A DNA stretch of 64,000 nt from positions 1 through 64,000 of the forward strand of contig JAKPCK010000141.1 in the NCBI GenBank assembly GCA_029553295.1, read 5' to 3'. The first letter of the stretch is position 1; the number at the start of each line of letters is the position of its first letter. Positions 461-16,401 of the stretch are shown piece by piece. The notes beneath the pieces were generated by a model. That model made no database searches. It was not told the DNA's origin and was given only the letters and a program-made list of their open reading frames with translations. This stretch comes from Deltaproteobacteria bacterium. GTDB taxonomy: Bacteria; Desulfobacterota; Syntrophorhabdia; Syntrophorhabdales; Syntrophorhabdaceae. A program made the position numbers and the translations under genes.

Positions 461-3400
461 TCAAAACTGCAGTCTTAATCCAGCATTTATCGTCTGTGCA
501 ATATAACGGCTGTTACCTGCCTGGAAGTTGTAATTACAGAATATCTGTGCATTATTTTTTAAGACAGCTGTGATGCCGGCACCCAGTGACACAAAGTTTC
601 TGTCAGGGGAGGCGGTCTCTATGCCTACTACAGAGCTTCCCTGGCTAAGGGATACATCTATGGTCTTGCTGTTGTTTAAGAACTCATGTCCATATGATGC
701 CCATATACTCGGTAGATATTCAGCGTTTTTGGTCTGCCATTTATATGTCATCCTGCCGCCTATGTTGCTCTGGAATGAATTCCCTGTCTGTCTTTCTACA
801 TCAAGGTTTAATGCCCCGGCACCAGATTCTGTGTAGCTATCTAAGTTGAGATACACATACTGCAGGGAGAGTGTTGGACCAAAAGAGAGGTTGCCTTTTT
901 TGAAGTCATATCCTGCCCCTCCATAGGCTGCAAACTGGTGGCCACTGGGCTTTGATGTTGCTGTCCTGTCTATCCCTGGGAACACTATCCTCCTTGTATT
1001 GTCATACCTGTTGTATGAATAGTTGATAAAGGCATCTGAATAGAATCCACCTGTATAGTATGATTTGTATAAACCAAGGGTATATCCGTCAAGCTTGACC
1101 TTGCTTCCTGCATCGCTTATATCGGTCTTTGAATTATAAAAGCCTGCCATAACACCGGCGATAAAATTATTTGAGAAGCGGTAGTCACTCCCTATGGTTA
1201 TCCCTGTGGTTGTAAATTTATAGCCTACCTCATCAGGGGATGTCCCTTTATCTCCCAATACTGTGCTGCCCCTTACAAAGAATCCCCATTTACCATCATA
1301 TTTTTGAGGGATAATACCTGTTAATTCCCTGCCTGAAGATGCAACCATAAAAGGTGCAAAGGAATAACCATTAACGCTGAATCCAGAAAAACCGCTCCTT
1401 AGCTCACCAAGGCGGCTTGATATATTCCCGGATTGGAAGTTTGCACTGTTTATAGCAACATTTGTAGAGACATTGGAGCTTATAGGCAGGAGCTGTTCCA
1501 GTGCAGATGCTGTCTGACTGTATGAGGTAAGGGAGTCTATGGCACCAAGGACAGTATTTAAGTCCCCTGTTGCTGTGTTGCCAACAGAGTTTAGCATAGA
1601 ACCTATTGCCTGCTGGTTAGCTGTTAAATAGGGCATGATGTTTTCATTTATATAGTCACGCTCTACCATAAGGTATATCTGGTTCGCTATATCGTATTTA
1701 GGCTTGAACATGACTGTGGGGGTTATGTTTGTTAATAGCCTTGAGAATCTCCCTGTAACCCCCGATGTGGCTGTAAGGATTGTCCCGAACCTGGTCCCTG
1801 GTTTTGGCGTTGCCCCACCTGTCCATGAGGTCTGGAGGATGCCTGCTATGTCTGCTGCCCCTGTTATGGCAAGGAGGTCGTTGCTTATTGGAGAGGCTAC
1901 CTCGATGAGGAGCTTGGCTGCAGAATCCTGGTAATAGTCACCAATAATTGTAAGGGTGCCGATGGAGTTGCCGGGCTTGATGGTGCCGTCTAAATGGTAG
2001 AAGCCATAGGGGGCTATAATCGTGCCTGCCCCTGATACAATACCTCCGTCAAGGACAAAGAAACCATCATCAGGGTCTTCATCATCCTCAGCACGCTCCA
2101 TCTCAACAATACCGTTTATATTCATCTCGCCCTTTGAGACCTGTAGTTTTTCATTTACTTTTACACTAAGGCCTGTCGGGTTGATAAAGACATCATTAGG
2201 GTCATTTAAAAACAAGCTCCTTGCCTTAATATCTGTATCCTGGGTGGTTGTCCCTGAATCCTTAAATATAAGGGCACCCATAAGGAGGGTAAGCTTATAG
2301 CTGTTCCATGTCCCTAATTCACTACCTGCCTTATTCACTGTATCACACATAGTAATCGTCCATGTCCCTGCAGTTTTATCCTTACCCCCCAGGGGGTCTT
2401 CGCCCCAGAAGGCATTGGATAGAAATGTCCAGCCAAAATTGGTAACACTTGCCTTATCCTGTTTGTTTTCATCAAGACTTGATGTGGGATACAATATTAT
2501 GCTCTTTGTATCATAAGGAGATGTTACAAAGGCTGCAAGGTCCCCCCTCTTTTTATGGGTGAAGTTGAGCTCCACCTCCACACCCTCGAGAGGTTGCCTC
2601 AGGGAGGCAGGCAGCTCTTTTGTGGTCAGGTTTATCTGTTTACTTGTCCCCCCGACACCGTTTTCGTCTAAATACTTAATGGTCTCGTTTACTGTCTTTG
2701 TTGCAGTGGAATATGATGTCTGGGTTGTGACGCCCATTACAGTCTTCAGCCTCTCTATAAATTTTCCGGCATTTATATTGCCGAAGCCATAGTTGGGATT
2801 AAACCAGTTCCCTGCCCCGTTTTTAACCCAGCCCCCGGTATCGCTTTTATCATCTGGGTCAACCCTCGTGCTTGTCTGGACAAGGACATGCTTTGCCATA
2901 CGGGTGTCCATATATCTATTTGCCTGCACACCCAGTGCAAGTATACCTGATACAAGGGGCGCGGCAGCGGATGTGCCACCGAACAGGGATGTATAATTTG
3001 TATCAGGAAATGTATCATATTTATCACCGGATGTGTTGGAATCTGAATATCTGTTATAACCCAAATCTGCGCCTGTTCTGTCTGTGGTTAATATACCAAA
3101 CCCTGTAAGGTCACTCCTGTTAGAAGGGGCAGTGACAAATATGCTGGCACCGTAACAGCTGTAATTGGCAAATTTACCGTCGCTTCCCAGGGCTGCTACA
3201 TTTATGACATCCCTATAGCTGTTTGCAGCTGCCTTGTTTGCATCCTCATTGGTTTTTCCCCTGTCATTGCCTGCAGCAAAGACATGTATTACACCGTTGG
3301 CAGATGTCTTGGAAAGGGCCTGAAGGACTATGTTCTCCTCCTCTACAAAAGGTGTATTTTCTCCATAGCTATGGTTCTTTATGACGATCTCAGGTCTGCT

Positions 3401-4003
3401 CTTAATGGTATATTTGCCTGTATTCCTATCAAATAAGACACCGCTTCCCCACATATAGGCATTGAATTCGTCTTCTTTTGTCAGATCACCACCTAAAATC
3501 TTGAGCCCTGCAAGACCGGCATAGGGGGCTGCACCTGTGCCACCTGTATTATTCCCCCCTCTTGCAGCAGCCACACCAGCCACGGCTGTCCCGTGGTTGT
3601 CACTTATTTTTACAGGCCCCTGGGTCTCTGATATTTTACCGTTCTCGAATGTACGGCTTAGCCTTGAAATGTAGTTGTCCTTGAGGTCTTCGTGGGTTCC
3701 TTCCACGCCATCGTCGACTATCCCTATCACGACCCCTTTTCCAGTATACCCTGCATCCCATGCACCTTTTAGATTGGCATCCACACCGGCATTTTTCATT
3801 GTCACACTTCCCTGTATATACTCTATATAAATAGTAATCTCTGAAGGTGCATTGTTGAGAAGGTGCCACTGACCAGGAAAACTGGGTCTAACAGTGCTGT
3901 TGTAAAGAAAATAAGGGTCATTGGGGACAAAAGGAGTCCCCTGGCAAAAGACACTGACAGGCAAAAATATCCCAAAACATAGAAAAAGTATTATTTTTTT
4001 CAT
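461..4003 (-). CDS. Kexin-like subtilase (S8) autotransporter
   Basis: Predicted secreted serine protease of about 1180 residues. The start chosen is the ATG at 4003 (MKKIILFL..., a clean signal peptide ending near FCQG), because AGGTAGG precedes it and an upstream in-frame ATG at 4030 would overlap the next gene. The subtilase domain carries the triad Asp97 (IVDDGVEG), His137 (DNHGTAVAG) and Ser345 (GGTSAAAP), with the oxyanion Asn in AAGND. The DDG and DNHGT contexts are those of kexin/furin-type S8 enzymes. A P/Homo B-like domain follows at roughly residues 450-560. Next come a passenger-associated repeat region (GAGTI...GTIKPGNSIGTL) and a C-terminal autotransporter beta-barrel of about 270 residues ending in Phe. 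It probably acts at the cell surface on unknown substrates. The 200 bp after the stop contain a short inverted repeat, GTGACA-N6-TGTCAC. Confidence 0.9.
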   Translation of the reverse strand: MKKIILFLCFGIFLPVSVFCQGTPFVPNDPYFLYNSTVRPSFPGQWHLLNNAPSEITIYIEYIQGSVTMKNAGVDANLKGAWDAGYTGKGVVIGIVDDGVEGTHEDLKDNYISRLSRTFENGKISETQGPVKISDNHGTAVAGVAAARGGNNTGGTGAAPYAGLAGLKILGGDLTKEDEFNAYMWGSGVLFDRNTGKYTIKSRPEIVIKNHSYGENTPFVEEENIVLQALSKTSANGVIHVFAAGNDRGKTNEDANKAAANSYRDVINVAALGSDGKFANYSCYGASIFVTAPSNRSDLTGFGILTTDRTGADLGYNRYSDSNTSGDKYDTFPDTNYTSLFGGTSAAAPLVSGILALGVQANRYMDTRMAKHVLVQTSTRVDPDDKSDTGGWVKNGAGNWFNPNYGFGNINAGKFIERLKTVMGVTTQTSYSTATKTVNETIKYLDENGVGGTSKQINLTTKELPASLRQPLEGVEVELNFTHKKRGDLAAFVTSPYDTKSIILYPTSSLDENKQDKASVTNFGWTFLSNAFWGEDPLGGKDKTAGTWTITMCDTVNKAGSELGTWNSYKLTLLMGALIFKDSGTTTQDTDIKARSLFLNDPNDVFINPTGLSVKVNEKLQVSKGEMNINGIVEMERAEDDEDPDDGFFVLDGGIVSGAGTIIAPYGFYHLDGTIKPGNSIGTLTIIGDYYQDSAAKLLIEVASPISNDLLAITGAADIAGILQTSWTGGATPKPGTRFGTILTATSGVTGRFSRLLTNITPTVMFKPKYDIANQIYLMVERDYINENIMPYLTANQQAIGSMLNSVGNTATGDLNTVLGAIDSLTSYSQTASALEQLLPISSNVSTNVAINSANFQSGNISSRLGELRSGFSGFSVNGYSFAPFMVASSGRELTGIIPQKYDGKWGFFVRGSTVLGDKGTSPDEVGYKFTTTGITIGSDYRFSNNFIAGVMAGFYNSKTDISDAGSKVKLDGYTLGLYKSYYTGGFYSDAFINYSYNRYDNTRRIVFPGIDRTATSKPSGHQFAAYGGAGYDFKKGNLSFGPTLSLQYVYLNLDSYTESGAGALNLDVERQTGNSFQSNIGGRMTYKWQTKNAEYLPSIWASYGHEFLNNSKTIDVSLSQGSSVVGIETASPDRNFVSLGAGITAVLKNNAQIFCNYNFQAGNSRYIAQTINAGLRLQF

Positions 4004-4010
4004 ATCCAGC

Positions 4011-4604
4011 CTACCTGTTTTCATGCTCACCTCTGATAGTTGATTTTAAAAGCAGATTAGCCTTTTCAGCAACCTCCTGCGCCTCCTTCTCCAGGGCAAG
4101 ACCTGACCCTCCAACACCAAAAGGGAATTTAGAGCTTTTACGTTTAATAGTCAAAAGCCATTGCCTCTTGCGCCATATCAAAGGCATAGATGGGTTTAGA
4201 TGCCAGAGGTAATTAAACCTTGCGCTATCCCCTCTGGTATAATAGAATCCCTCTATCTTGTGGGCATCTGGTTCAATACTTACAATCCCCTTGCCTTTAC
4301 GGTATATCCAAAGAGTGTCTGTTTTTAAATCAAAGCCGAGTCTATATTCGCCCATGCCTAATTTTTTGAGAGGTATATAAGAAAGAAATAAAATAGCCCC
4401 TAAAATAAAAAAAATCGGCGCCATCTTTGCATCCTCGGGTTTACTGAGTGCAGCAAGGCCAACAAAGAGGAAAAACCCCCCAACAGAGATAGGGGATGCC
4501 CTGGCAAAATCCCTCCAGCCAGGACTCCTCCAAGCCCTGACAGAAATCTGGGGTGAAGAAGCACCTGTTTCAATATGGTTATATCTACCTGTTATATCAC
4601 CCAT
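4011..4604 (-). CDS. Hypothetical membrane protein (197 aa)
   Basis: Family not recognised. Two adjacent hydrophobic segments (about residues 39-54 and 62-80, separated by SKPEDAK) predict a membrane hairpin. A basic, soluble C-terminal domain of about 110 residues follows. The stop lies 7 bp upstream of the chosen autotransporter start, so the two genes are probably co-transcribed and this one is translated first. A role in export or anchoring of the autotransporter is possible but is only a neighbourhood inference. The decayed autotransporter fragment lies directly upstream of its start. Confidence 0.65.
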   Translation of the reverse strand: MGDITGRYNHIETGASSPQISVRAWRSPGWRDFARASPISVGGFFLFVGLAALSKPEDAKMAPIFFILGAILFLSYIPLKKLGMGEYRLGFDLKTDTLWIYRKGKGIVSIEPDAHKIEGFYYTRGDSARFNYLWHLNPSMPLIWRKRQWLLTIKRKSSKFPFGVGGSGLALEKEAQEVAEKANLLLKSTIRGEHENR

Positions 4605-7551: not shown

Positions 7552-7656
7552 CGGGGTTTATTAAAGATGAACCTATACATTCTAAACATCATTGCGTCTG
7601 CTTATTTTGTATCATACAAATATACCTTTATCAACATACTAAATTCCATAAATTTG

Positions 7657-7686
7657 TTGACATGAAATATTGGATTGTGCTAAAAA
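7657..7686 (+). promoter_or_regulatory. Candidate promoter for the trp leader
   Basis: A perfect -35 box TTGACA (7657-7662) is followed after 18 bases by TAAAAA (7681-7686), a weak -10. The predicted transcription start (about 7692-7694) is only a few bases before the leader-peptide ATG at 7696, which would make the leader nearly leaderless. The strong -35 supports it; the -10 is uncertain. Confidence 0.5.
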
Positions 7687-7695
7687 TAGAACAAC

Positions 7696-7749
7696 ATGGA
7701 ACAGAACATAACTAAAATAAACAGAAATTGGTGGTGGCAGTTGTTATAG
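7696..7749 (+). CDS. trpL: Trp-rich leader peptide of the trpB attenuator (17 aa)
   Basis: The reading frame encodes [17 protein letters not shown] and then TAG. Three consecutive TGG codons occupy 7729-7737, and the frame is closed by an in-frame TAG at 7687-7689 just upstream. Runs of Trp codons in a short ORF before alternative RNA hairpins are the hallmark of ribosome-mediated trp attenuation. No good Shine-Dalgarno sequence is visible and the predicted transcript starts very near the ATG, so initiation may be weak or leaderless. The position of the Trp codons relative to the antiterminator fits the classical model: a ribosome stalled there leaves 7749-7760 free, while one at the stop codon covers it. 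Confidence 0.85.
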
Positions 7750-7805
7750 GTGTGAAACCGTGAACAACATGCCACAGGCGGTTTCACACCGCCTGTGGCT
7801 TTTTT
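7735..7805 (+). promoter_or_regulatory. Transcription attenuator of trpB: antiterminator and terminator
   Basis: Three competing pairings are visible. A pause-type stem pairs TGGCAGTTGTT (7735-7745) with AACAACATGCCA (7763-7774), with one bulged base. The antiterminator is a perfect 12 bp stem: GGTGTGAAACCG (7749-7760) with CGGTTTCACACC (7779-7790). The terminator is a perfect 12 bp GC-rich stem (7771-7782 with 7788-7799, loop TTCAC) followed by six T (7800-7805). Antiterminator and terminator share 7779-7790 and are mutually exclusive. With the WWW leader peptide just upstream, this is a tryptophan-responsive switch: low Trp-tRNA stalls the ribosome and allows readthrough. Confidence 0.9.
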
Positions 7806-7811
7806 GTTTAA

Positions 7812-7848
7812 GGGGCCATGGGCTTAAAAAACCCATGACCCCTTTTTT
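7812..7848 (+). terminator. Second intrinsic terminator before trpB
   Basis: GGGGCCATGGG (7812-7822) pairs with CCCATGACCCC (7832-7842) with one C/A mismatch, followed by TTTTTT (7843-7848). It stands directly behind the attenuator terminator, so it may act as a backup stop for leader transcripts. I see no separate antiterminator for it; a ribosome finishing upstream would not reach it. Confidence 0.75.
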
Positions 7849-7870
7849 ATTGAAAAAAGGAGGAAAAGAC

Positions 7871-9232
7871 ATGGAAAAGAAGATCTTTTTAAAGGAGAGC
7901 GAGATACCCAGGCAATGGTATAACATCCAGGCTGACCTGCCCACGCCCTTGCCGCCTCCCCTTAATCCTGCCACAGGTGAGCCTATTACACCGGATATGC
8001 TGGCGCCCATATTCCCCATGAACCTCATAGAGCAGGAGGTATCCGGGGAGCGTTTTATTGATATACCGGAAGAGGTCCTGGATAGGCTTTTGATCTGGAG
8101 GCCCACACCTCTTTGCAGGGCATACAGCCTTGAAAGATTCCTCGGGACGCCGGCAAGGATATATTTTAAAAATGAGGGGGTAAGCCCTCCAGGTAGCCAC
8201 AAACCCAATACTGCCATCCCTCAGGCATATTACAACAAGGTCTTTGGCATCAAGAGGCTCACCACAGAGACAGGTGCAGGTCAATGGGGCAGTGCCCTTG
8301 CCTTTGCCTGCCATCAGTTTGGCCTGGAGCTAAAGATATATATGGTAAGGGTAAGCTATAATCAGAAGCCATACAGGAGGGTTATGATGGAGGTATGGGG
8401 TGGCAGGTGCATCCCAAGTCCCAGCATGGACACAAACGCAGGCAGGAGGTTTCTTGATGAAAACCCAGAGCACCCCGGGAGTCTTGGCATTGCCATAAGC
8501 GAGGCAATAGAGGATGCAGTAACATCAAAGAACACAAAATACTCATTGGGGAGTGTCTTAAACCATGTGATGTTGCATCAAACCATCATCGGCCTTGAGG
8601 CACAGAAACAGCTTGCCTCTATTGGCGAGTACCCTGATGTGGTGATAGGTTGTGTCGGCGGAGGCAGTAACTTTGCCGGTATTGCATTCCCTTTTATCAG
8701 GGACAAGATAAACGGCAAGGACATAAAGATAATAGCGTCTGAACCTACATCTTGCCCTACCCTTACCAAAGGCCCCTATGTCTATGACTTCGGTGATACT
8801 GCTGAGACTACCCCTTTACTACCCATGCACTCCATAGGGCACGGTTTTGTCCCGGCACCTATCCATGCCGGGGGACTCAGGTATCATGGCATGGCACCCC
8901 TTGTGAGCAGGCTCTTGCTGGATGGCCTCATAGAGGCAAGGGCATATTCACAGCTTGAGACATTTGCAGCAGGCATTACCTTTGCCAGGACAGAGGGTTT
9001 TATCCCTGCCCCTGAGACAGACCATGCCATTGCATGTGTCATAGATGAGGCAAAAAAGGCAAAAGAGGAGGGAAGGGAAAAGGTCATACTGATGAACTGG
9101 AGCGGACACGGCGTTATAGACCTTGCCTCATATGATGCATATATGGCAGGGAGGCTTGAAAATTTTGAGCTCCCTGACGAAGATATAGCAAGGCTTATTA
9201 AAGACCTGGAGAAATTTCCAAAACCTGTATAA
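7871..9232 (+). CDS. trpB: Tryptophan synthase beta chain, TrpB2 type
   Basis: PLP enzyme that condenses indole with serine to give tryptophan. The start is the ATG at 7871 ([13 protein letters not shown]), preceded by AAGGAGGAAAAGAC; the longer frame from 7760 reads through both terminators and is not used. The 453-residue product has the PLP lysine Lys111 in [10 protein letters not shown] and the phosphate loop [11 protein letters not shown]. The long N-terminus and lack of a partner trpA mark the TrpB2 group, which works without TrpA. It stands outside a trp operon, under its own Trp attenuator, and is followed by an aminotransferase and arylpyruvate-type oxidoreductase genes. Salvage of indole is a reasonable role. 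Confidence 0.93.
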
Positions 9233-9341: not shown

Positions 9342-9581
9342 TTGGAAATATATTGCATACAGATGGGTAGTATAATAGAATTCTCTTATTGTATGTCTCA
9401 GGATAATGGATTACCCTGCAGGAACATAGTGGGGTGCTGGCAGGACAGGTTTGATATCCAGAGGTTTCTCAAATCAAAGTTCACCGAGGAGGAGATGATA
9501 AAGGTATTCGGTGGCCTGCCAAAAAATAAACTGGAGAGGATAATAGAGTGCCTGTCCCGTCATAGCGGGAGGATTAAATGA
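9342..9581 (+). CDS. Conserved small Cys-containing hypothetical protein (79 aa)
   Basis: The start is TTG at 9342, set by a perfect AGGAGG at 9331-9336. The product begins EIYCIQMG and contains SYCMSQDNGLPCRNIVGCW, then RFDIQRFLKSKFTEEEM and GGLPKNKLERIIECL. From memory, similar short proteins with this Cys pattern (YC...LPCRNI..CW) occur in other deltaproteobacterial genomes without an assigned function. The four spaced Cys could bind metal. It lies between trpB and the aminotransferase in the same direction. A coding-like stretch continues past its TGA (see next entry), so its true C-terminus is open to question. Confidence 0.7.
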   Translation: MEIYCIQMGSIIEFSYCMSQDNGLPCRNIVGCWQDRFDIQRFLKSKFTEEEMIKVFGGLPKNKLERIIECLSRHSGRIK

Positions 9582-9686
9582 ATACAATTCACAATAACGG
9601 GTCAAAAGGGTCTTAAGGATGTGTCCTTTCATCCTGGGCCATTTAAAAAGGCCATAGAATTAATGCATCTCGATAAGGAGGTTTGA
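9578..9686 (+). other. Coding-like tail after the 79-aa gene: frameshifted small gene or read-through
   Basis: After the TGA at 9579-9581 the same frame stays open for 34 codons. It has protein-like content (ITGQKGLKDVSFHPGP, then FKKAIELMHLDKEV) and ends at a TGA that overlaps the aminotransferase ATG (TGATG, 9684-9688). An ATG at 9578 overlaps the first TGA as ATGA, with GGGAGG at 9567-9572, but it lies in another frame and stops after 12 codons. A single extra base near 9586 would join this ATG to the 34-codon frame, giving a coupled small gene of about 36 residues. Alternatives are stop-codon read-through, including selenocysteine, since selA is 2 kb away, or chance. No convincing SECIS hairpin lies right after the TGA. 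Confidence 0.4.
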
Positions 9687-10786
9687 TGCAGCTTTCAGAT
9701 AGGGTAATGAATGTAAGACCTTCAGGGGTTAGAAAGATCTTTGACCTTGCAAGAAAGGTTAAAGACCCCATAAACTTAAGCATTGGCGAGCCTGACTTTG
9801 ATATACCTGAGCCCATAAAGGATGAGGGGATTGCATGGATAAAGGCAGGTTTTAACAAATACACGCCCTCTGGCGGTATACCTGAACTCAGGGAGATGCT
9901 CCTTAACCACCTGAAGCAAGACAAGGGGATAATATGCGATGATGTTATTATAACAGCAGGTGTAACAGGGGGACTGCTCCTCGCCCTGATGGTAACCCTA
10001 AACCCCCTTGATGAGGTCATCATCCCTGACCCGTATTTTGTCCTATACGAATATCAGGTCTTGCTTTTAGGGGGGAGGCCTGTTTTTATCGATACATACC
10101 CGGATTTTACCATAAAGGAGGATAGACTAAGGGCTGCCATAACAGACAGGACAAAGGTCATACTCGTCAACAGCCCCAATAACCCCACAGGCATGGTCTG
10201 CTCAAGGGAGGAGCTGGAGATGGTGGCAAGGGTGGCAAGGGAGAAAAACATCCTTTTATTCTCCGATGATATATATGACAGATTTGTTTATGAAAATGGA
10301 GATGAAAGGGTCTATCTTGGTTCGCTCTATGACAGGACCCTTACGTTTGGTGGTTTTTCAAAGACATGGGGTATGACAGGGTGGCGTCTTGGCTATGTGG
10401 CAGGGCCATCTGAGATAATCCAGTGTATGGTTACTATGCAGCAGTATGTCTTCAGTAGTGTCAACTCCTTTGCCCAAAAGGCAGCGCTTAAGGCACTAAG
10501 GTATAATACAGATAGCCTTATAGATGCCTATAAACGTAAGAGAGACCTTATATACGAAGGCCTGAAGGATAAATACAATGTATTAAAACCAAAGGGTGCG
10601 TATTTTATATTCCCCGAGGTGCCGGATGGCGATGGTGATAGGTTTGTGGAGAAGGCACTCAAAAAAAAGCTCTTTATAATACCCGGAAGTGTCTTTTCAA
10701 GCAGAAAGACAAATGTTAGGATATCCTTTGCAGCAAGTGAGGGGGATATCATAAAGGGTATAGAGATACTGAGGAAGATGGCATAA
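9686..10786 (+). CDS. Class I/II PLP aminotransferase, probably aromatic or aspartate type
   Basis: Transfers amino groups between amino acids and 2-oxoacids. The ATG at 9686 follows AAGGAGG (9675-9681); a TTG one codon earlier is also in frame. Family motifs are NLSIGEPDFDIP near the N-terminus, VNSPNNPTG, LLFSDDIYDRFVY, the PLP lysine Lys226 in FGGFSKTWGMTGWRLGY, and Arg in NVRISFA. The 366-residue length is typical of the I-gamma aminotransferases that accept aspartate, alanine or aromatic substrates. Its position between trpB and the 2-oxoacid oxidoreductase genes suggests it produces the 2-oxoacid (for example indolepyruvate or phenylpyruvate) that the next genes oxidise; this is inference. 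Confidence 0.88.
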   Translation: MQLSDRVMNVRPSGVRKIFDLARKVKDPINLSIGEPDFDIPEPIKDEGIAWIKAGFNKYTPSGGIPELREMLLNHLKQDKGIICDDVIITAGVTGGLLLALMVTLNPLDEVIIPDPYFVLYEYQVLLLGGRPVFIDTYPDFTIKEDRLRAAITDRTKVILVNSPNNPTGMVCSREELEMVARVAREKNILLFSDDIYDRFVYENGDERVYLGSLYDRTLTFGGFSKTWGMTGWRLGYVAGPSEIIQCMVTMQQYVFSSVNSFAQKAALKALRYNTDSLIDAYKRKRDLIYEGLKDKYNVLKPKGAYFIFPEVPDGDGDRFVEKALKKKLFIIPGSVFSSRKTNVRISFAASEGDIIKGIEILRKMA

Positions 10787-10853: not shown

Positions 10854-12101
10854 ATGTATGAGGATATATGCAAATCATTAATAGAAAACAACACAAGGCT
10901 AATATATATAACAAACAGGGCACTGGAAAAGACCCTGGAAAAGATGGACAGGGATAACAATCCTTTTCATCATGAGGTCTGTCTTAACGAAAAGATCGCC
11001 TTTGAGCTTGGTCTTGCCGGTGGTATTGCATCTAAAAGAACAGCATGCATATTCTCCACCGAAGGCATCTATGAGGCCCTCGACCCTATTATGAGCTCAG
11101 CCTACACCGGTGTAAAAAAAGGCCTCCTCATAGTATGCATACAGGATACCCCGCAGGATGTCACACCCCTTGGGCTTTTTTCAAAGATACCTGTAATTGT
11201 CGAGGATGGTAATAACCCTGTATCTGATACAATAGGTTATGCCTATTATATCTCAGAGAGATACGAGACCCCGGTGATACTCCAGATATGCCCGGAAGAT
11301 GAAGGCCACTGGTCAAGGACAGAAGATAAAGGCCTGGGTACAAAGGCAGAGATATTGGCCCAGCATGCAAGCCATGCCTCCCTTTTTATAAAAGACCCTG
11401 GCAGGTGGGCAGCAACGCCGAGCTTTAGATACCATCTCCATAAGGCCCTCAATGAAAAGGTGGAAAAGATAAGGGAGGAGTTTGAGACCTACAGGGGGAA
11501 CAAGTTGCAGATAAAGGGGAAAAACGGCGTTATAACAAGCAAGAAAGCATACCTTGACTTCTATGAAGAGGATACGAGCCTCCTTTTTATATCAACGGTA
11601 TTCCCCCTGCCCATAAAACTGGTAAACAGCTTTATAGAAAAGATGGATGATGTCCAGCTCATCGAGGGTGAATACCCTGCCATAGAACTCCAGATACCAG
11701 ACAGAAAAAAGATAACAGCAGAGCATATAAAGATCCCGTCGAGGATAAAAAGGCACGATGAGGACATGTTTGGATTTGAGATAATAAGAGACAGGCTCGG
11801 GCCTGCATCCTCCATTAACATGGCCCATGGTATAAAAAAAACAGAGCCCCAGAGGCATATCCTTGCTGTGACATATGAAGACCACTTTCTCCACTCCGGG
11901 ATGCCTGCATTTATAAATACCATGTATAACAATTCTGCCTATGCACTCCTTATCATGGTAAACAATCAAGAGGATGCCATAAAGAGGTTTATGGATGGAT
12001 GCGGATTCCATAATTATTTTCATCTCGATAAGGTGGAAGAGATAGAAAAATACAAAGATATGGATGGATTAACTGTGTTCTTCTGCAGGGGTATCATATA
12101 A
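10854..12101 (+). CDS. Degenerate IorA-like protein without iron-sulfur domain
   Basis: The 415-residue product aligns along its length with the first three quarters of the complete IorA at 16398. CLNEKIAFELGLAGGIAS matches its SVNERCSLEVALGAAM, and the following LLIVCIQDTPQD matches LVLVVCDDPGPQ. In the thiamine diphosphate region the usual GDSTFFHAG reads YEDHFLHSG, and MDNGTTAMTG reads VNNQEDAIKR. The C-terminal two-cluster ferredoxin domain is missing. It is therefore probably catalytically dead and may be a structural or regulatory partner of the oxidoreductase encoded downstream. The reading frame is intact and the next gene follows after 23 bases, so it is not an obvious pseudogene. 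Confidence 0.75.
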   Translation: MYEDICKSLIENNTRLIYITNRALEKTLEKMDRDNNPFHHEVCLNEKIAFELGLAGGIASKRTACIFSTEGIYEALDPIMSSAYTGVKKGLLIVCIQDTPQDVTPLGLFSKIPVIVEDGNNPVSDTIGYAYYISERYETPVILQICPEDEGHWSRTEDKGLGTKAEILAQHASHASLFIKDPGRWAATPSFRYHLHKALNEKVEKIREEFETYRGNKLQIKGKNGVITSKKAYLDFYEEDTSLLFISTVFPLPIKLVNSFIEKMDDVQLIEGEYPAIELQIPDRKKITAEHIKIPSRIKRHDEDMFGFEIIRDRLGPASSINMAHGIKKTEPQRHILAVTYEDHFLHSGMPAFINTMYNNSAYALLIMVNNQEDAIKRFMDGCGFHNYFHLDKVEEIEKYKDMDGLTVFFCRGII

Positions 12102-12124
12102 AAATGCGTCAAAAAGGAGAGTCT

Positions 12125-12697
12125 GTGAATATAGAGATTATATGTGCTGGCATCGGTGGGAGGGGGGTGCTTCTGGCATCAACAATCCTCATAGAGTGTG
12201 CTATCAAGGCAGGTCATCATGCCATGGCCTCAGACGAATACGGGATGAGCCAGAGGGGCGGTTCTGTTGTCTCCCACGTCAAGATTGGCAATATCAAGAG
12301 CCCTGTGATTGGAAGGGAGAATGCAGATGTCCTGCTGTCTTTTGAAGAGAGTGAGTTTTACAGAAACCTTAGCTTTCTGAAACAAGGGGGGCTCGCAATC
12401 ATAAACAGTAAAAGCAAGACAATCCCTGATTCTGTAAGAGACCTGTTAAACAGGAGGTCTTGCTCATCTTACCTGATAGACGGTGACGGCATAGCAAAAA
12501 AAATGGGTATGATACAGGCATCGAATATGGCGGTTCTCGGTTTTTTCTCAGCCTTTTCCATAGGGCCATATAACTATAAGTCTTTAAGCGATACCTTAAG
12601 AGAAAAGGTGCCGGAGAGGTTATTCGAGAAGAATATAGAGGTTTTTAAGGCAGGTTTTTCAGAGGCAGAAAAGGTCTTAAAATGTAAGGGGTTATAG
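12125..12697 (+). CDS. 2-oxoacid:ferredoxin oxidoreductase gamma subunit (IorB/PorG type)
   Basis: The gamma domain of the oxidoreductase helps bind CoA and interfaces with the alpha subunit. The start is GTG at 12125, because AAGGAG lies 5-6 bases before it; an ATG at 12104 is also open. The product starts NIEIICAGIGGRGVLLAS and has ASDEYGMSQRGGSVVSHVKIG, the signature of IorB and PorG/VorG chains. It is followed without a gap by delta, alpha and beta subunits, so it most simply serves as gamma of a four-subunit enzyme. Because the downstream IorA has no partner of its own, it may also act as its IorB. Confidence 0.85.
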   Translation: MNIEIICAGIGGRGVLLASTILIECAIKAGHHAMASDEYGMSQRGGSVVSHVKIGNIKSPVIGRENADVLLSFEESEFYRNLSFLKQGGLAIINSKSKTIPDSVRDLLNRRSCSSYLIDGDGIAKKMGMIQASNMAVLGFFSAFSIGPYNYKSLSDTLREKVPERLFEKNIEVFKAGFSEAEKVLKCKGL

Positions 12698-12931
12698 ATG
12701 AAAAAAGTATATATAGACAAAAGCAGGTGCAAAGGCTGTATGCTCTGCACATATTACTGTCCAAAAAAGATACTCATTGTATCGGATATGGTAAATCAGG
12801 ATGGATATAGGGTAGTAGCATGCACAGATGATGAAAGATGCATAGGGTGTCTAAGCTGCGCCCACATATGCCCCTGTGCATGTTTTGAGATATACAGGGA
12901 ACAGCCTGTGGTCACAGGAGGCTTGTTATGA
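12698..12931 (+). CDS. 2-oxoacid:ferredoxin oxidoreductase delta subunit, 2[4Fe-4S] ferredoxin
   Basis: A 77-residue ferredoxin with two full cluster motifs: Cys11, 14, 17, 21 (CKGCMLCTYYCP) and Cys48, 51, 54, 58 (CIGCLSCAHICP). It carries electrons out of the catalytic beta subunit. The gene starts directly after the gamma stop and overlaps the alpha gene by 4 bases (ATGA), giving the classic gamma-delta-alpha-beta order. An additional Cys in CPCACFE follows the second motif. Confidence 0.92.
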   Translation: MKKVYIDKSRCKGCMLCTYYCPKKILIVSDMVNQDGYRVVACTDDERCIGCLSCAHICPCACFEIYREQPVVTGGLL

Positions 12932-13923
12932 CAGGGTCTATGTTCATGCAAGGCAAGGCATCGGCAATACTGGGTGAGGCCATTGTAAGGCTTGTGGATA
13001 ATGGGAGGGTCTATGGTTTTTCCCACCCCCCGGTAAATGAGATATACGAATATATTGCAAAAAAAGGCATATTTGCCCCAGCATTCTCTATAAAGGAGAT
13101 GGCAGAAATAGGCCTCGGCATATCAACCGCTGGCAAGAGGACATTTGTCATCACCTCTGGGACAGGCATCTATGATTGTATGGAGGCCATATCCTATGCC
13201 ACATCATATGAGGTCCCGTTTTTATCCATCCATATAGGAAAAAGCATCCCTGGTTTTGGTAACCCATACCCTTATCAGGGTGACCTGGAGATACTAAAGG
13301 CCGGGGACTTCCCCCCCATCATATTCTGTCCTTATATGGTAGATGAGATACCGTTTCTGTTATCCCAGATGGTAGAGCTGTCAGAGAGATACAGGCACCC
13401 GGCAGTGTTTTATCTGGATAGTGCCTTGCTCAATATGACCGGGGGTGCAGACCTAAATCTCAAGGTACCCGAGGCATCGTGGGGCCTAAGGACAGAAAAA
13501 AGGGTCATAAGTAGCATCTACCTCGAGGTCAGGGATATGGAAAAAAGGCTATCAGGGCTTAAAGAAAAATATAACCTCATAAGGAAAGAGGCAAGGTCAC
13601 ATCTATATATGATGGAAGATGCTGAGTATGTTGTTGTTGCATATGGTATATGCGCCTATATAGCCAAGAAGGCTGTTGACGAGCTCAGACTCATGGATAT
13701 AAAGGCAGGGATGATTAATCCTGTAATTCTCTCGCCTCTATCAGACCTGAATGGGCAATTCGTGAGGGCAAAAAAGATATATGTTGTAGAGATGAGTAAC
13801 GGTCAGTTATACCGTTATATAAAAGGTTATGTCGGGGGTGTTGAGATGAAAACCTATAATGCTTACGGTGGATTGATCCCGGATAAGGGGGGTCTCATAG
13901 ATTATATAAAGGGGTCGCTCTGA
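12928..13923 (+). CDS. 2-oxoacid:ferredoxin oxidoreductase alpha subunit
   Basis: 331 residues of the pyrimidine-binding half of a thiamine-dependent 2-oxoacid:acceptor oxidoreductase. It begins GKASAILGEAIVRLVDNG. The segment after it (GFSHPPVNEIYEYIAKKG) corresponds to the GYPITPSSEI region of KorA/VorB, and KEMAEIGLGISTAGKRTFVITSGTGI carries the conserved Glu and the TSGPG-like turn. IHIGKSIPGFGNPYPYQGDLE replaces the usual RGGPSTGLPT substrate-side loop, so the substrate is probably not plain pyruvate. It overlaps both neighbours by 1-4 bases. In composition the cluster resembles phenylglyoxylate dehydrogenase (PadEFGHI) and branched-chain or aryl oxidoreductases. Confidence 0.88.
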   Translation: MTGSMFMQGKASAILGEAIVRLVDNGRVYGFSHPPVNEIYEYIAKKGIFAPAFSIKEMAEIGLGISTAGKRTFVITSGTGIYDCMEAISYATSYEVPFLSIHIGKSIPGFGNPYPYQGDLEILKAGDFPPIIFCPYMVDEIPFLLSQMVELSERYRHPAVFYLDSALLNMTGGADLNLKVPEASWGLRTEKRVISSIYLEVRDMEKRLSGLKEKYNLIRKEARSHLYMMEDAEYVVVAYGICAYIAKKAVDELRLMDIKAGMINPVILSPLSDLNGQFVRAKKIYVVEMSNGQLYRYIKGYVGGVEMKTYNAYGGLIPDKGGLIDYIKGSL

Positions 13924-14669
13924 TGGATGAGAAAAGAAAGATAGAAAAGGTCTATGGCTTTCCTGAGATATTAACAGAGAAAAAAGCCCACTTCTGTCCT
14001 GGTTGCTCCCATGGTATAATGACAAAGGTTATATCAGAGGCCATAGGCGAGATGGGGCTTGAAGATTCCTCAATAGGCGTATATGGCGCTGGATGTGCTG
14101 CTATTATGTATGACTATATAAACATAAAGGGTGTGGCTGCCCCACCTGGTGGTGCAGTAGGCATAGCTACCGGTATTAAATCCGCAGGAAAGGGCTCCCT
14201 TGTCTTTGCATATCAGGGGGAAGGTGACCTTTTTTATGGGTTATCATCCCTTATAGGTGCTGGGGTCAGGGGCGAAGGGATAACAATTATCTGTGAGAAT
14301 AACCTAAATATGGGGATATCAGGTGGTGCAATGAGCCCTGCAACACCTGTGGGTGTCATGACCACCACATCACCACAGGGGCGGCATATTGCATCATACG
14401 GTGCACCTGTAAGCATTGCAGAGATGCTCAAGGACATAAAGGGTATAAAATATATTGCCCGATGTTCTACCCATTCTCCAGGGGCTGTGAGAAAGACAAA
14501 GTCTATCATTAAAAAGGCATTTGAGCTACAACTATACGGTGAAGGTACAGCCTTTATCGAGGCCCTCGGCATGTGCCCCACAAACATGCACCTTACCCCG
14601 GTAGAGGCAGCATTAAAGATAAGAGAGGTCTATGGCGAATTACAGACAGGAGAGATTAAACACCCATGA
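13923..14669 (+). CDS. 2-oxoacid:ferredoxin oxidoreductase beta subunit (TPP-binding)
   Basis: The catalytic thiamine diphosphate subunit, 248 residues. FCPGCSHG near residue 25 is the CxGCG-type motif of the family, and YQGEGDLFYGLSSLI...ICENN is the GDG(x~25)NN cofactor motif, here intact. IYGAGCAAIM- and GGAMSPATP-like segments follow the KorB/VorA pattern. It starts in the overlap TGATG with alpha and overlaps the next ferredoxin gene by 4 bases, so translation is coupled through the whole block. Confidence 0.88.
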   Translation: MDEKRKIEKVYGFPEILTEKKAHFCPGCSHGIMTKVISEAIGEMGLEDSSIGVYGAGCAAIMYDYINIKGVAAPPGGAVGIATGIKSAGKGSLVFAYQGEGDLFYGLSSLIGAGVRGEGITIICENNLNMGISGGAMSPATPVGVMTTTSPQGRHIASYGAPVSIAEMLKDIKGIKYIARCSTHSPGAVRKTKSIIKKAFELQLYGEGTAFIEALGMCPTNMHLTPVEAALKIREVYGELQTGEIKHP

Positions 14670-15175
14670 AGGAGATACATTTCATAAAGGATAGATGCAT
14701 AAGGTGTGGTGCATGCAGTGTTGCCTGTGCTGCAGAACATAATAAAAATCATCATCTATACGATTCACTGATAAATATACCCTTTGCACCAAAACAAAAA
14801 ACTGTTTTTCAGGTTGAACAGGGAGAGGCTTTGCCTCACCCTTTGAGATGTAGAAATTGTGAGGAGCCTGCCTGCATGGAGGCATGTATATCCGGGGCAA
14901 TGAACAAGGAGCACAGGGTTTTTAGCAATTGGAAGAGGTGTATTGGTTGTTTTATGTGTGTAATGAACTGTCCCTACGGTGCAATACTGCCTTTTTTTGG
15001 AAAGGCAGTAAAGTGCGACCAGTGTCTTTTTACAGAAAAACCTGCATGCGTTAGGGCATGTCCTGTTAATGCGCTGGTATTTGTGGATTCTCACGACCTC
15101 TCTCTTGTAAGAAAACAAAAACGATGGCGCAATAGAAAAGATATGGATGCGCCGCTTCTCAGAGCAAGATATTGA
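14666..15175 (+). CDS. CooF-like iron-sulfur electron carrier (four [4Fe-4S] motifs)
   Basis: 169 residues with four Cys clusters: CIRCGACSVACAAEHN at residues 11-26, CRNCEEPACMEAC, CIGCFMCVMNCP and CDQCLFTEKPACVRACP. This is the layout of the CooF/HycB/DmsB family, proteins that pass electrons between a catalytic subunit and another carrier. No signal peptide is present, so it is cytoplasmic. It overlaps the beta subunit gene (ATGA) and the flavoprotein gene (TGATG), so it most likely carries electrons from the oxidoreductase to the flavoprotein. Confidence 0.88.
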   Translation: MKEIHFIKDRCIRCGACSVACAAEHNKNHHLYDSLINIPFAPKQKTVFQVEQGEALPHPLRCRNCEEPACMEACISGAMNKEHRVFSNWKRCIGCFMCVMNCPYGAILPFFGKAVKCDQCLFTEKPACVRACPVNALVFVDSHDLSLVRKQKRWRNRKDMDAPLLRARY

Positions 15176-16401
15176 TGGATTATATCATCCTCGGAAACGG
15201 TATAGCAGGGATTCAGGGTGCATTAAACATAAGAAGATACGACAGAGAGGGTGATATAACCATTATAACTGATGAAGAGTATGGGTTTTATTCAAGGCCT
15301 ATGATTACCGATATAATGACAGGGAAGAGACGGCCAGAAGAGATTATACTTATGGGAGAGGAAGGATATAGGGCCTTCGGGTTTAAGTTTATGAAAGGAC
15401 TGAGCATTAAGAGGATTGACCTTGAAAAAAGGTGCCTCTATTCATCCCAGGACAGGATAAAATTCCATAGACTCTTGATAGCCACAGGGGCAAGGCCAAA
15501 GAGGATAAAAAAACATAGGGACGGGGTATATTACCTCAGGTCTATTAAGGATGCGCTGGATATAAAAAGACAACTTAAAAACACAAAAAAGGCCATAGTC
15601 TATGGTGGCGGCCCAGTAGGCATAAAAGCTGCCTATGCCCTTTTATCGTGGGGGATGCCTGTGAGTATAATGGTAACCTCTCCCCAGATTATGTCACGGG
15701 TCTTTGATAAAAAAACAGCTTCTGTGTTCCAGCGTTTATTTGAGGAAAATGGTGCAAAATTCTATCTAGGCAGCTCTATTGAAGATTTGGTATGGCAAAA
15801 AGGCCTAAAGGGTGTGGTCACCGACAGGGGGGACTATATAGATGGGGGCATCCTTATAGTGGGGAAGGGGGTAGTTTCTCATACTGAGATTGCAGAAGAT
15901 GCAGGCATATCAGTAAATGAAGGTATAATCGTCAATGATATGATGGAGACAAGCGAGGATGGTATATACGCAGCCGGTGATGTGGCAGAGACGAATACGG
16001 GGCCAGGCAATAAAGGAAGGGTATTTGCCCTATGGCACACCGGGGCTGAGCAGGGGAAGGTGGCCGGGGCAAACATGGCAGGGGAAAAGAAGATATACAA
16101 TGGTTCTGTCAGTTCAAACAGTGTTGAGTATTTTGGCATGAAGGCCATATCCATGGGGACTATGGAAGGAGAAGGACTGAAGGAGGAGATATACGAGGAT
16201 AAAGATGGATACAGGAGGTTCATGTTCAGGGATGAACTCCTTGTGGGCGCCATACTTGTGGGGAATATCCAGGGTGCAGGGATACTCCTTAATGCCATAA
16301 AGAAAGGGACACCCCGTTCTATATGGAAAAGAGACTTTCTATCATCCCATTGGCCATGCCTGTCTATCCACCCCAACATAACAATGGAGGTCTTGTTTTG
16401 A
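15175..16401 (+). CDS. FAD-dependent NAD(P) oxidoreductase (NirB/rubredoxin-reductase fold)
   Basis: 408 residues from the ATG at 15175, overlapping the previous stop. An N-terminal FAD-binding motif (ILGNGIAGIQGALNI), a second dinucleotide motif (AIVYGGGPVGIKAAYAL, about residue 142) and the FAD-closing GIYAAGDVAE place it in the pyridine nucleotide-disulfide family without active-site Cys. Such flavoproteins link ferredoxin-type carriers to NAD(P). With the CooF-like protein it probably makes the oxidoreductase NAD-linked, as the flavoprotein subunit PadH does for phenylglyoxylate dehydrogenase (known for that system; the parallel here is inference). Confidence 0.87.
   Translation: MDYIILGNGIAGIQGALNIRRYDREGDITIITDEEYGFYSRPMITDIMTGKRRPEEIILMGEEGYRAFGFKFMKGLSIKRIDLEKRCLYSSQDRIKFHRLLIATGARPKRIKKHRDGVYYLRSIKDALDIKRQLKNTKKAIVYGGGPVGIKAAYALLSWGMPVSIMVTSPQIMSRVFDKKTASVFQRLFEENGAKFYLGSSIEDLVWQKGLKGVVTDRGDYIDGGILIVGKGVVSHTEIAEDAGISVNEGIIVNDMMETSEDGIYAAGDVAETNTGPGNKGRVFALWHTGAEQGKVAGANMAGEKKIYNGSVSSNSVEYFGMKAISMGTMEGEGLKEEIYEDKDGYRRFMFRDELLVGAILVGNIQGAGILLNAIKKGTPRSIWKRDFLSSHWPCLSIHPNITMEVLF

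Follow-up and report, generated by a model that had tools for sequence, protein, structure and literature searches.

A predicted ribosome-mediated tryptophan attenuator with two serial terminators upstream of trpB2 in a Syntrophorhabdaceae genome

In the 64,000-nt window, as we call the whole stretch of DNA analysed here, the gene trpB2 is preceded by an element that we read, with a probability of roughly 0.9, as a ribosome-mediated tryptophan attenuator whose six segments form a cascade with two serial terminators; attenuation taken alone, apart from the cascade, is if anything slightly more secure. Sequence comparison among relatives shows the leader, its Trp codons, the stems 2:3, 3:4 and 5:6 and the association with trpB2, and readthrough is predicted to rise when charged tRNA-Trp is low. 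The mechanism belongs to a known type; within the literature searched, what is new is TrpB2 as the client, the serial terminators with a relay stem, and the sharing of the switch by an aminotransferase operon and a transporter.

The features of the element all lie on the + strand. A predicted sigma-70 promoter (7657–7686), read from the sequence, comprises TTGACA (7657–7662) and, at 18 nt, the extended −10 TGC-TAAAAA (7678–7686); it is absent from the output of an automatic promoter scan because its −10 lacks the final T. The putative leader peptide that follows has 17 codons (7696–7749; ATG at 7696, TAG at 7747–7749) and no Shine–Dalgarno sequence, and its codons 12–14 are three consecutive Trp codons, TGG TGG TGG (7729–7737), the predicted ribosome stall site; leaders with WWW also occur in relatives. 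The first-pass annotation had described this leader, and did so exactly, along with two perfect 12-bp helices that we likewise find. Segment 2 (7749–7760), the 5′ arm of the antiterminator, overlaps the leader stop codon and pairs at 12 of 12 positions with segment 3 (7779–7790), the 3′ arm, which overlaps the loop and inner stem of terminator T1. T1 (7771–7805) consists of the 3:4 stem (7771–7782/7788–7799, 12/12 pairs) followed by T6 (7800–7805), and a terminator scan picks it up, with 2 matches over both strands against 0.2 expected. A second terminator, which the annotation had simply placed behind the first, is indeed present (T2, 5:6; 7812–7848, its inverted repeat read with arms 7810–7825/7829–7844 and T6 at 7843–7848, and with U-tracts in relatives), but it probably belongs to the switch, through pairing of the T1 3′ arm with the T2 5′ arm. 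The outer part of segment 4, CCTGTGGC (7792–7799), is complementary at 8 of 8 positions to the core of segment 5, GCCATGGG (7815–7822), which lies within the T2 5′ arm, and the two would pair in the antiterminated state. The folding energy of 7680–7810 has z = −5.0, a value equalled by none of 200 shuffles.

In the mechanism that we propose, a ribosome would start on a nearly leaderless message. Where charged tRNA-Trp is scarce, we infer that it would stall at Trp codons 12–14 and leave segment 2 free to pair with segment 3, blocking T1; segment 4, thereby free, would pair with segment 5 ahead of the synthesis of segment 6, so that T2 would be blocked too and polymerase would read into trpB2 and probably also into the aminotransferase and oxidoreductase genes behind it. 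With ample tryptophan, the ribosome would reach the stop codon and cover segment 2, 3:4 would form, and segment 5 would be left free for 5:6, with termination at T1, or at T2 for polymerases that pass T1. An untranslated leader would pair with the downstream region, and T1 would form anyway. Tryptophan shortage would in this way induce TrpB2 and the making of tryptophan from indole.

That the antiterminator and terminator exclude each other, with segment 2 freed by a stalled ribosome and covered by one at the stop codon, is supported by the coordinates, by covariation and by folds computed from a masked 5′ end. Prefix folding with the RNA free from 7746 (stalled ribosome) makes 2:3 + 4:5 dominant (0.93–0.99) at 3′ ends 7822–7836, and, when 7762 is the first free nucleotide (ribosome at the stop), gives 3:4 (0.97–0.99) from 7793 on and then 5:6, these being equilibrium folds with masking positions of our choosing. 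By equilibrium stability 3:4 is stronger than 2:3 (−25.4 versus −19.4 kcal/mol), the terminators are preferred at 3′ ends 7799–7815 and after 7842, and 3:4 + 5:6 outweighs 2:3 + 4:5 once segment 6 has been made; the antiterminated state must therefore be kinetic, as in attenuation generally. A pseudoknot in which 2:3 coexists with the outer T1 stem was rejected by reasoning as sterically unlikely, since 1 nt would have to span a 12-bp helix.

Across trpB2 relatives, a comparison that the first-pass annotation had suggested, both the leader peptide and the stems proved to be conserved, with compensatory changes. A short ORF with at least three consecutive Trp codons stands within 600 nt upstream of trpB2 at 27 of 30 loci in the order and at 16 of 72 outside it, compared with 2 of 1630 control windows, and the leader with both hairpins is present in nearly all genomes of the family. 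The Trp run is kept while the leader codons outside it vary. In 26 aligned family leaders, 98.4% of the cells of the 2:3 stem are paired, two-sided changes fall at 5 pairs (GTGTGA/TCACAC, GTATGA/TCATAC, GTGCGA/TTGCAC and others), and the covariation score of 0.240 lies above all 500 shuffles (0.155 shuffled); the 3:4 stem behaves similarly (98.1% of cells paired, two-sided changes at 5 pairs, covariation again above all 500 shuffles), and in 5:6, with 86.7% of cells paired, 24 cells are altered on both sides compared with 10.6 when shuffled. A chance origin of the element is excluded by the counts of loci and control windows together with the folding z-score.

The same rarity of WWW ORFs in control windows tells against terminators whose sole task is to shield trpB2 from transcription arriving from upstream, or to end an antisense transcript, with the Trp run there by chance, a reading that we find scarcely credible. 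T1 and T2 are partly symmetric, the T1 stem being matched on both strands, and selA does lie upstream of trpB2; however, selA is encoded on the − strand and points away from trpB2, and a promoter-like site stands at a fixed distance before the leader in 26 of 26 relatives. Very improbable too, if by a shade less, is an RNA that senses a ligand or protein (of the riboswitch, T-box or TRAP-protein type) and in which the short ORF is incidental. In its favour is the unrelated 'trpB motif' of Firmicutes and Fusobacteria, a proposed riboswitch candidate (PMC11109978), but what is conserved here is the ORF, the Trp run and the alternative stems rather than a folded aptamer. No Rfam family reaches threshold in the element: at the gathering score Rfam finds only a tRNA in the whole window, and at a permissive threshold the weak matches in 7600–7900 include no trp leader and no tryptophan-related family.

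A few relatives depart from the pattern: the Trp codons are missing in L021 and L027, and the whole leader in L038, L039, L041, L042 and L043. L021 (G007:C68) no longer has the Trp run or the antiterminator arm but retains both terminators, and its segments 4, 5 and 6 have changed together (CCATGGTC, GACCATGG and CATGGTC); from its sequence it is a decaying switch that appears still to keep the 4:5 pairing. The five loci lacking the leader lie on contigs labelled Nitrospirae, Nitrospira or Thermodesulfovibrionales and carry a trpB2 78–83% identical to that of the window, plus a 79-aa ORF, without an attenuator; horizontal transfer, or mis-binning, with different control is possible.

T2 is probably part of the switch, with 2:3 + 4:5 set against 3:4 + 5:6, and we hold the operation of the 4:5 relay in vivo to be likely. 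In the 26 relatives, 99% of the 4:5 cells are paired, and the pairing is kept even though segment 4 takes seven forms. Inside the family, segment 5 is nearly invariant, the changes are G-U shifts and 1 compensatory pair, and 47 of 500 shuffles reach the score, so that 4:5 appears there to be maintained and not strongly covarying. Among 33 distant leaders, 4:5 pairing is better between cognate arms than between permuted ones (5 of 5000 permutations reach the value, in controls that leave the relatedness among leaders in place), and a residue flanking the 4:5 core, in the T2 loop, swaps T-A for C-G jointly with segment 4. The distant trpB2 leaders follow the same segment plan as the window, and about 25 out of 35 of them lack a U-tract at the 3:4 stem (0–4 T in 8 nt) and have one at 5:6. 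Since only 5:6 can terminate in most of them, ribosome control must pass via 2:3 and then 4:5. The pairing in relatives, the cognate-arm test and the folding intermediates are compatible with a probable six-segment relay of the his type.

The similarity of the T1 and T2 arms means that the 4:5 complementarity could partly be a by-product, and together with the weak 4:5 covariation inside the family, and with T2 folding well by itself (−17.0 kcal/mol), it fits a classic three-element attenuator (2:3 versus 3:4) in which T2 is an independent, constitutive backup that trims expression. We consider this unlikely, if still deserving of some weight. Such a T2 would lower expression in starvation too, yet it is conserved; in the distant leaders with a U-less T1, 2:3 would be powerless without 4:5; and the advantage of cognate over permuted arms includes T2-loop residues that are dispensable for 5:6. 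The linked two-terminator design would be a compact means to tight shut-off with full release.

The leader ATG lies 35–40 nt downstream of the start of the −35 box in 26 of 26 family leaders, which at normal promoter spacing would place the transcript start about 0–4 nt from the ATG, and a Shine–Dalgarno-like match precedes the leader ORF in only 1 of 26; the leader mRNA is accordingly predicted to be leaderless. The trp leader RNA of Sinorhizobium meliloti likewise starts at its own leader ATG (PMC7298713). A terminated leader that acts in trans as well, like rnTrpL/peTrpL of S. meliloti, would share this predicted leaderless message with that system, and a stable terminated RNA is expected. 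We nevertheless think it improbable: beyond the Trp run, the peptide differs in sequence from relative to relative and gives no hint of a conserved peptide function.

trpB2 itself (7871–9232, + strand) starts at ATG 7871 behind a Shine–Dalgarno sequence, AAGGAGG (7857–7863), read from the sequence, and encodes a TrpB-like PLP enzyme of 453 aa (TIGR01415 / PRK12391). An open frame from GTG 7760, continuous with trpB2, was considered as an N-terminal extension; it crosses both terminators, and ATG 7871 with its Shine–Dalgarno sequence is preferred. The product scores 669 bits against TIGR01415 (cut-off 518.85) versus 146 bits against the TrpB1 model TIGR00263 (cut-off 392), and by these scores is clearly a TrpB2, nearer that class than TrpB1. 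Among solved structures it comes nearest to 6hul_B, 4qys_B and 6hte_B, all tryptophan synthase beta chains. Syntrophorhabdaceae and other deltaproteobacterial (Thermodesulfobacteriota) genomes are the closest named relatives. Family and structures together suggest that the target of the switch is a tryptophan-acquisition gene.

Neither the source genome nor two same-genus relatives yielded trpA, trpD or trpB1, which family relatives carry; the source genome is a draft of 157 contigs, 96.8% complete, which makes gene absence likely rather than proven. The search for trpA there gave one 46-residue match, far under the cut-off. trpE is absent from the two same-genus genomes, and in the source genome it is a 159-aa fragment (L209, G000:C123, 5807–6508) at the end of an aroE/K-aroA-aroC-pheA-tyrA cluster, an apparent trace of the loss of the trp operon; a helix-turn-helix ORF that overlaps it on the opposite strand may be a transposase remnant. 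With trpB2 the only complete trp gene found in the source genome, the route is probably tryptophan salvage, with imported indole or related compounds as the probable starting material. For stand-alone TrpB2 a role as serine deaminase has been proposed, and the function for which it is selected in a genome missing the remaining trp genes has been described as still to be identified (PMC1854888). The conservation of a Trp-codon attenuator before trpB2 in many families speaks directly, on evolutionary grounds, for TrpB2 being used by cells to supply tryptophan, and it opens the role to testing.

The first-pass annotation had the attenuator controlling a single trpB2, which is probably too narrow. 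On the + strand behind trpB2 follow a conserved 79-aa ORF with a TTG start (9342–9581), a class I/II aminotransferase gene (9683–10786) and, as the likely remainder of the operon, genes for 2-oxoacid (indolepyruvate-like) ferredoxin oxidoreductase subunits, an Fe-S protein and an FAD oxidoreductase (10854–16401). The 79-aa ORF has conserved cysteines (MEIYCIQ...LPCRNIVGCWQ...), matched no Pfam family and adjoins trpB2 in many genomes, and its position before the aminotransferase is kept in relatives; its product is a putative partner of TrpB2. The order trpB2, 79-aa ORF, aminotransferase and oxidoreductase subunit recurs in L034, L035 and L036, and in L045 without the 79-aa ORF. From trpB2 to 16401 there are only weak + strand terminator-like matches, mostly inside genes, none of them a strong terminator, and trpB2 thus likely heads an operon with the aminotransferase and 2-oxoacid:ferredoxin oxidoreductase genes, as judged from gene order. 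Because in other genera the aminotransferase operon is preceded by a switch copy of its own, tryptophan co-regulation of these genes is likely. The oxidoreductase subunits score below the curated cut-offs, and their substrate is therefore a guess; on one reading, tryptophan would have a second source in indolepyruvate or, through reductive carboxylation, in indoleacetate. For Methanococcus maripaludis, an aryl-acid route leading to aromatic amino acids is mentioned (PMC4162585). Elsewhere in the window, 461–4030 on the − strand encodes, judged by eye from the translation, a large S8-type serine protease with an autotransporter-like C-terminus.

In the his operon attenuator, stems A:B, C:D and E:F alternate with B:C and D:E. 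The present element would resemble it in a proposed relay from the ribosome through several alternative stems to a distal terminator; the his system, however, has His codons, his genes and one terminator, whereas here 3:4 and 5:6 both have U-tracts. With E. coli trpL and the Corynebacterium/Streptomyces trp leaders (PMC1262725), the element shares a leader ORF with a Trp run, a stop near segment 2, and an exclusive antiterminator and terminator. Those trpE-led attenuators control trpE, whereas the client here is trpB2 and, in relatives, the aminotransferase operon and a TRAP transporter; the two terminators joined by a probable extra 4:5 pairing and the predicted leaderless leader also belong to the present element. 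In Corynebacterium diphtheriae, with trpB1EDGC and 'trpB2A', a Trp attenuator does precede a gene named trpB2 (PMC1262725), but trpA follows that gene. S. meliloti trpLE(G) is alike in its leader mRNA beginning at the leader ATG, its Trp codons and transcription attenuation, and differs in being alphaproteobacterial with trpE(G) as target and in that the accessible part of its report describes no six-segment pairing (PMC7298713). The Firmicutes/Fusobacteria 'trpB motif' is a structured leader with a terminator, sometimes upstream of trpB, and is set apart by its proposal as a riboswitch candidate and by its occurrence in other phyla (PMC11109978). A literature search on trpB2 attenuation, tandem terminators and Geobacter trp attenuation, mostly among open-access papers, did not find the element described.

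To look beyond trpB2, we scanned all 46 genomes of the order with a covariance model of the family leaders, and the 50 strongest matches (E below 1e-10) were assigned by coordinates and fetched loci. About 36 of them precede trpB2, as expected of a model trained on those leaders, 9 a DctP-DctQ-DctM TRAP transporter operon (L156–L160 and L165–L168; genes Pfam-confirmed for one locus, L157) and 4 an aminotransferase/oxidoreductase operon (L161, L162, L164 and L171); 1 runs off the fetched stretch. The attenuator at the nine DctPQM loci is of the WWW type and closely similar to that of trpB2, and the substrate of the transporter may be tryptophan or an indolic acid. Many weak matches of model R1 (E above about 1e-9) fall on both strands, look like ordinary bidirectional terminators and were left uncounted.

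A second model, from the distant trpB2 leaders, was run against 395 genomes of the phylum and gave matches with E up to 1e-6 in 55 of them. Its strongest matches directly precede trpB2, the gene whose leaders it was trained on: among the best 30 loci, 21 have trpB2 directly downstream and 2 a trpB2 fragment, while 3 stand before a DAHP synthase-trpE pair or trpE, 1 before an aro-type gene and 1 before trpD. The trpE-associated leaders L197 and L200 have the same 3:4/4:5/5:6 layout. With the switch before trpB2 and before trpE, trpD and aro loci, trp attenuation is therefore general in the phylum, with trpB2 as a main client.

We give even odds to a wider Thermodesulfobacteriota tryptophan-salvage regulon, in which the six-segment attenuator, with a single stalled ribosome opening both serial terminators, would govern trpB2, a TRAP importer, and an aminotransferase together with an oxidoreductase of the indolepyruvate type that runs in the synthesis direction. 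If it exists, such a regulon would demonstrate that tryptophan is what orphan TrpB2 enzymes produce in vivo. The sharing of one switch also directs attention to a transporter and to an oxidoreductase route, and makes it possible to guess at their substrates.

Short ORFs rich in Phe, Tyr and Trp were also seen before DAHP synthase genes in L169 (G012:C33), L210 (G005:C64), L211 (G010:C7) and L212 (G042:C9), with aromatic-rich leaders such as GYWYFYW (L211) and YWWFYFY (L212) followed by terminator hairpins. They are candidate attenuators that would sense Phe, Tyr and Trp together; those of L210–L212 lie about 7–11 kb upstream of trpE/trpD on the same contig.
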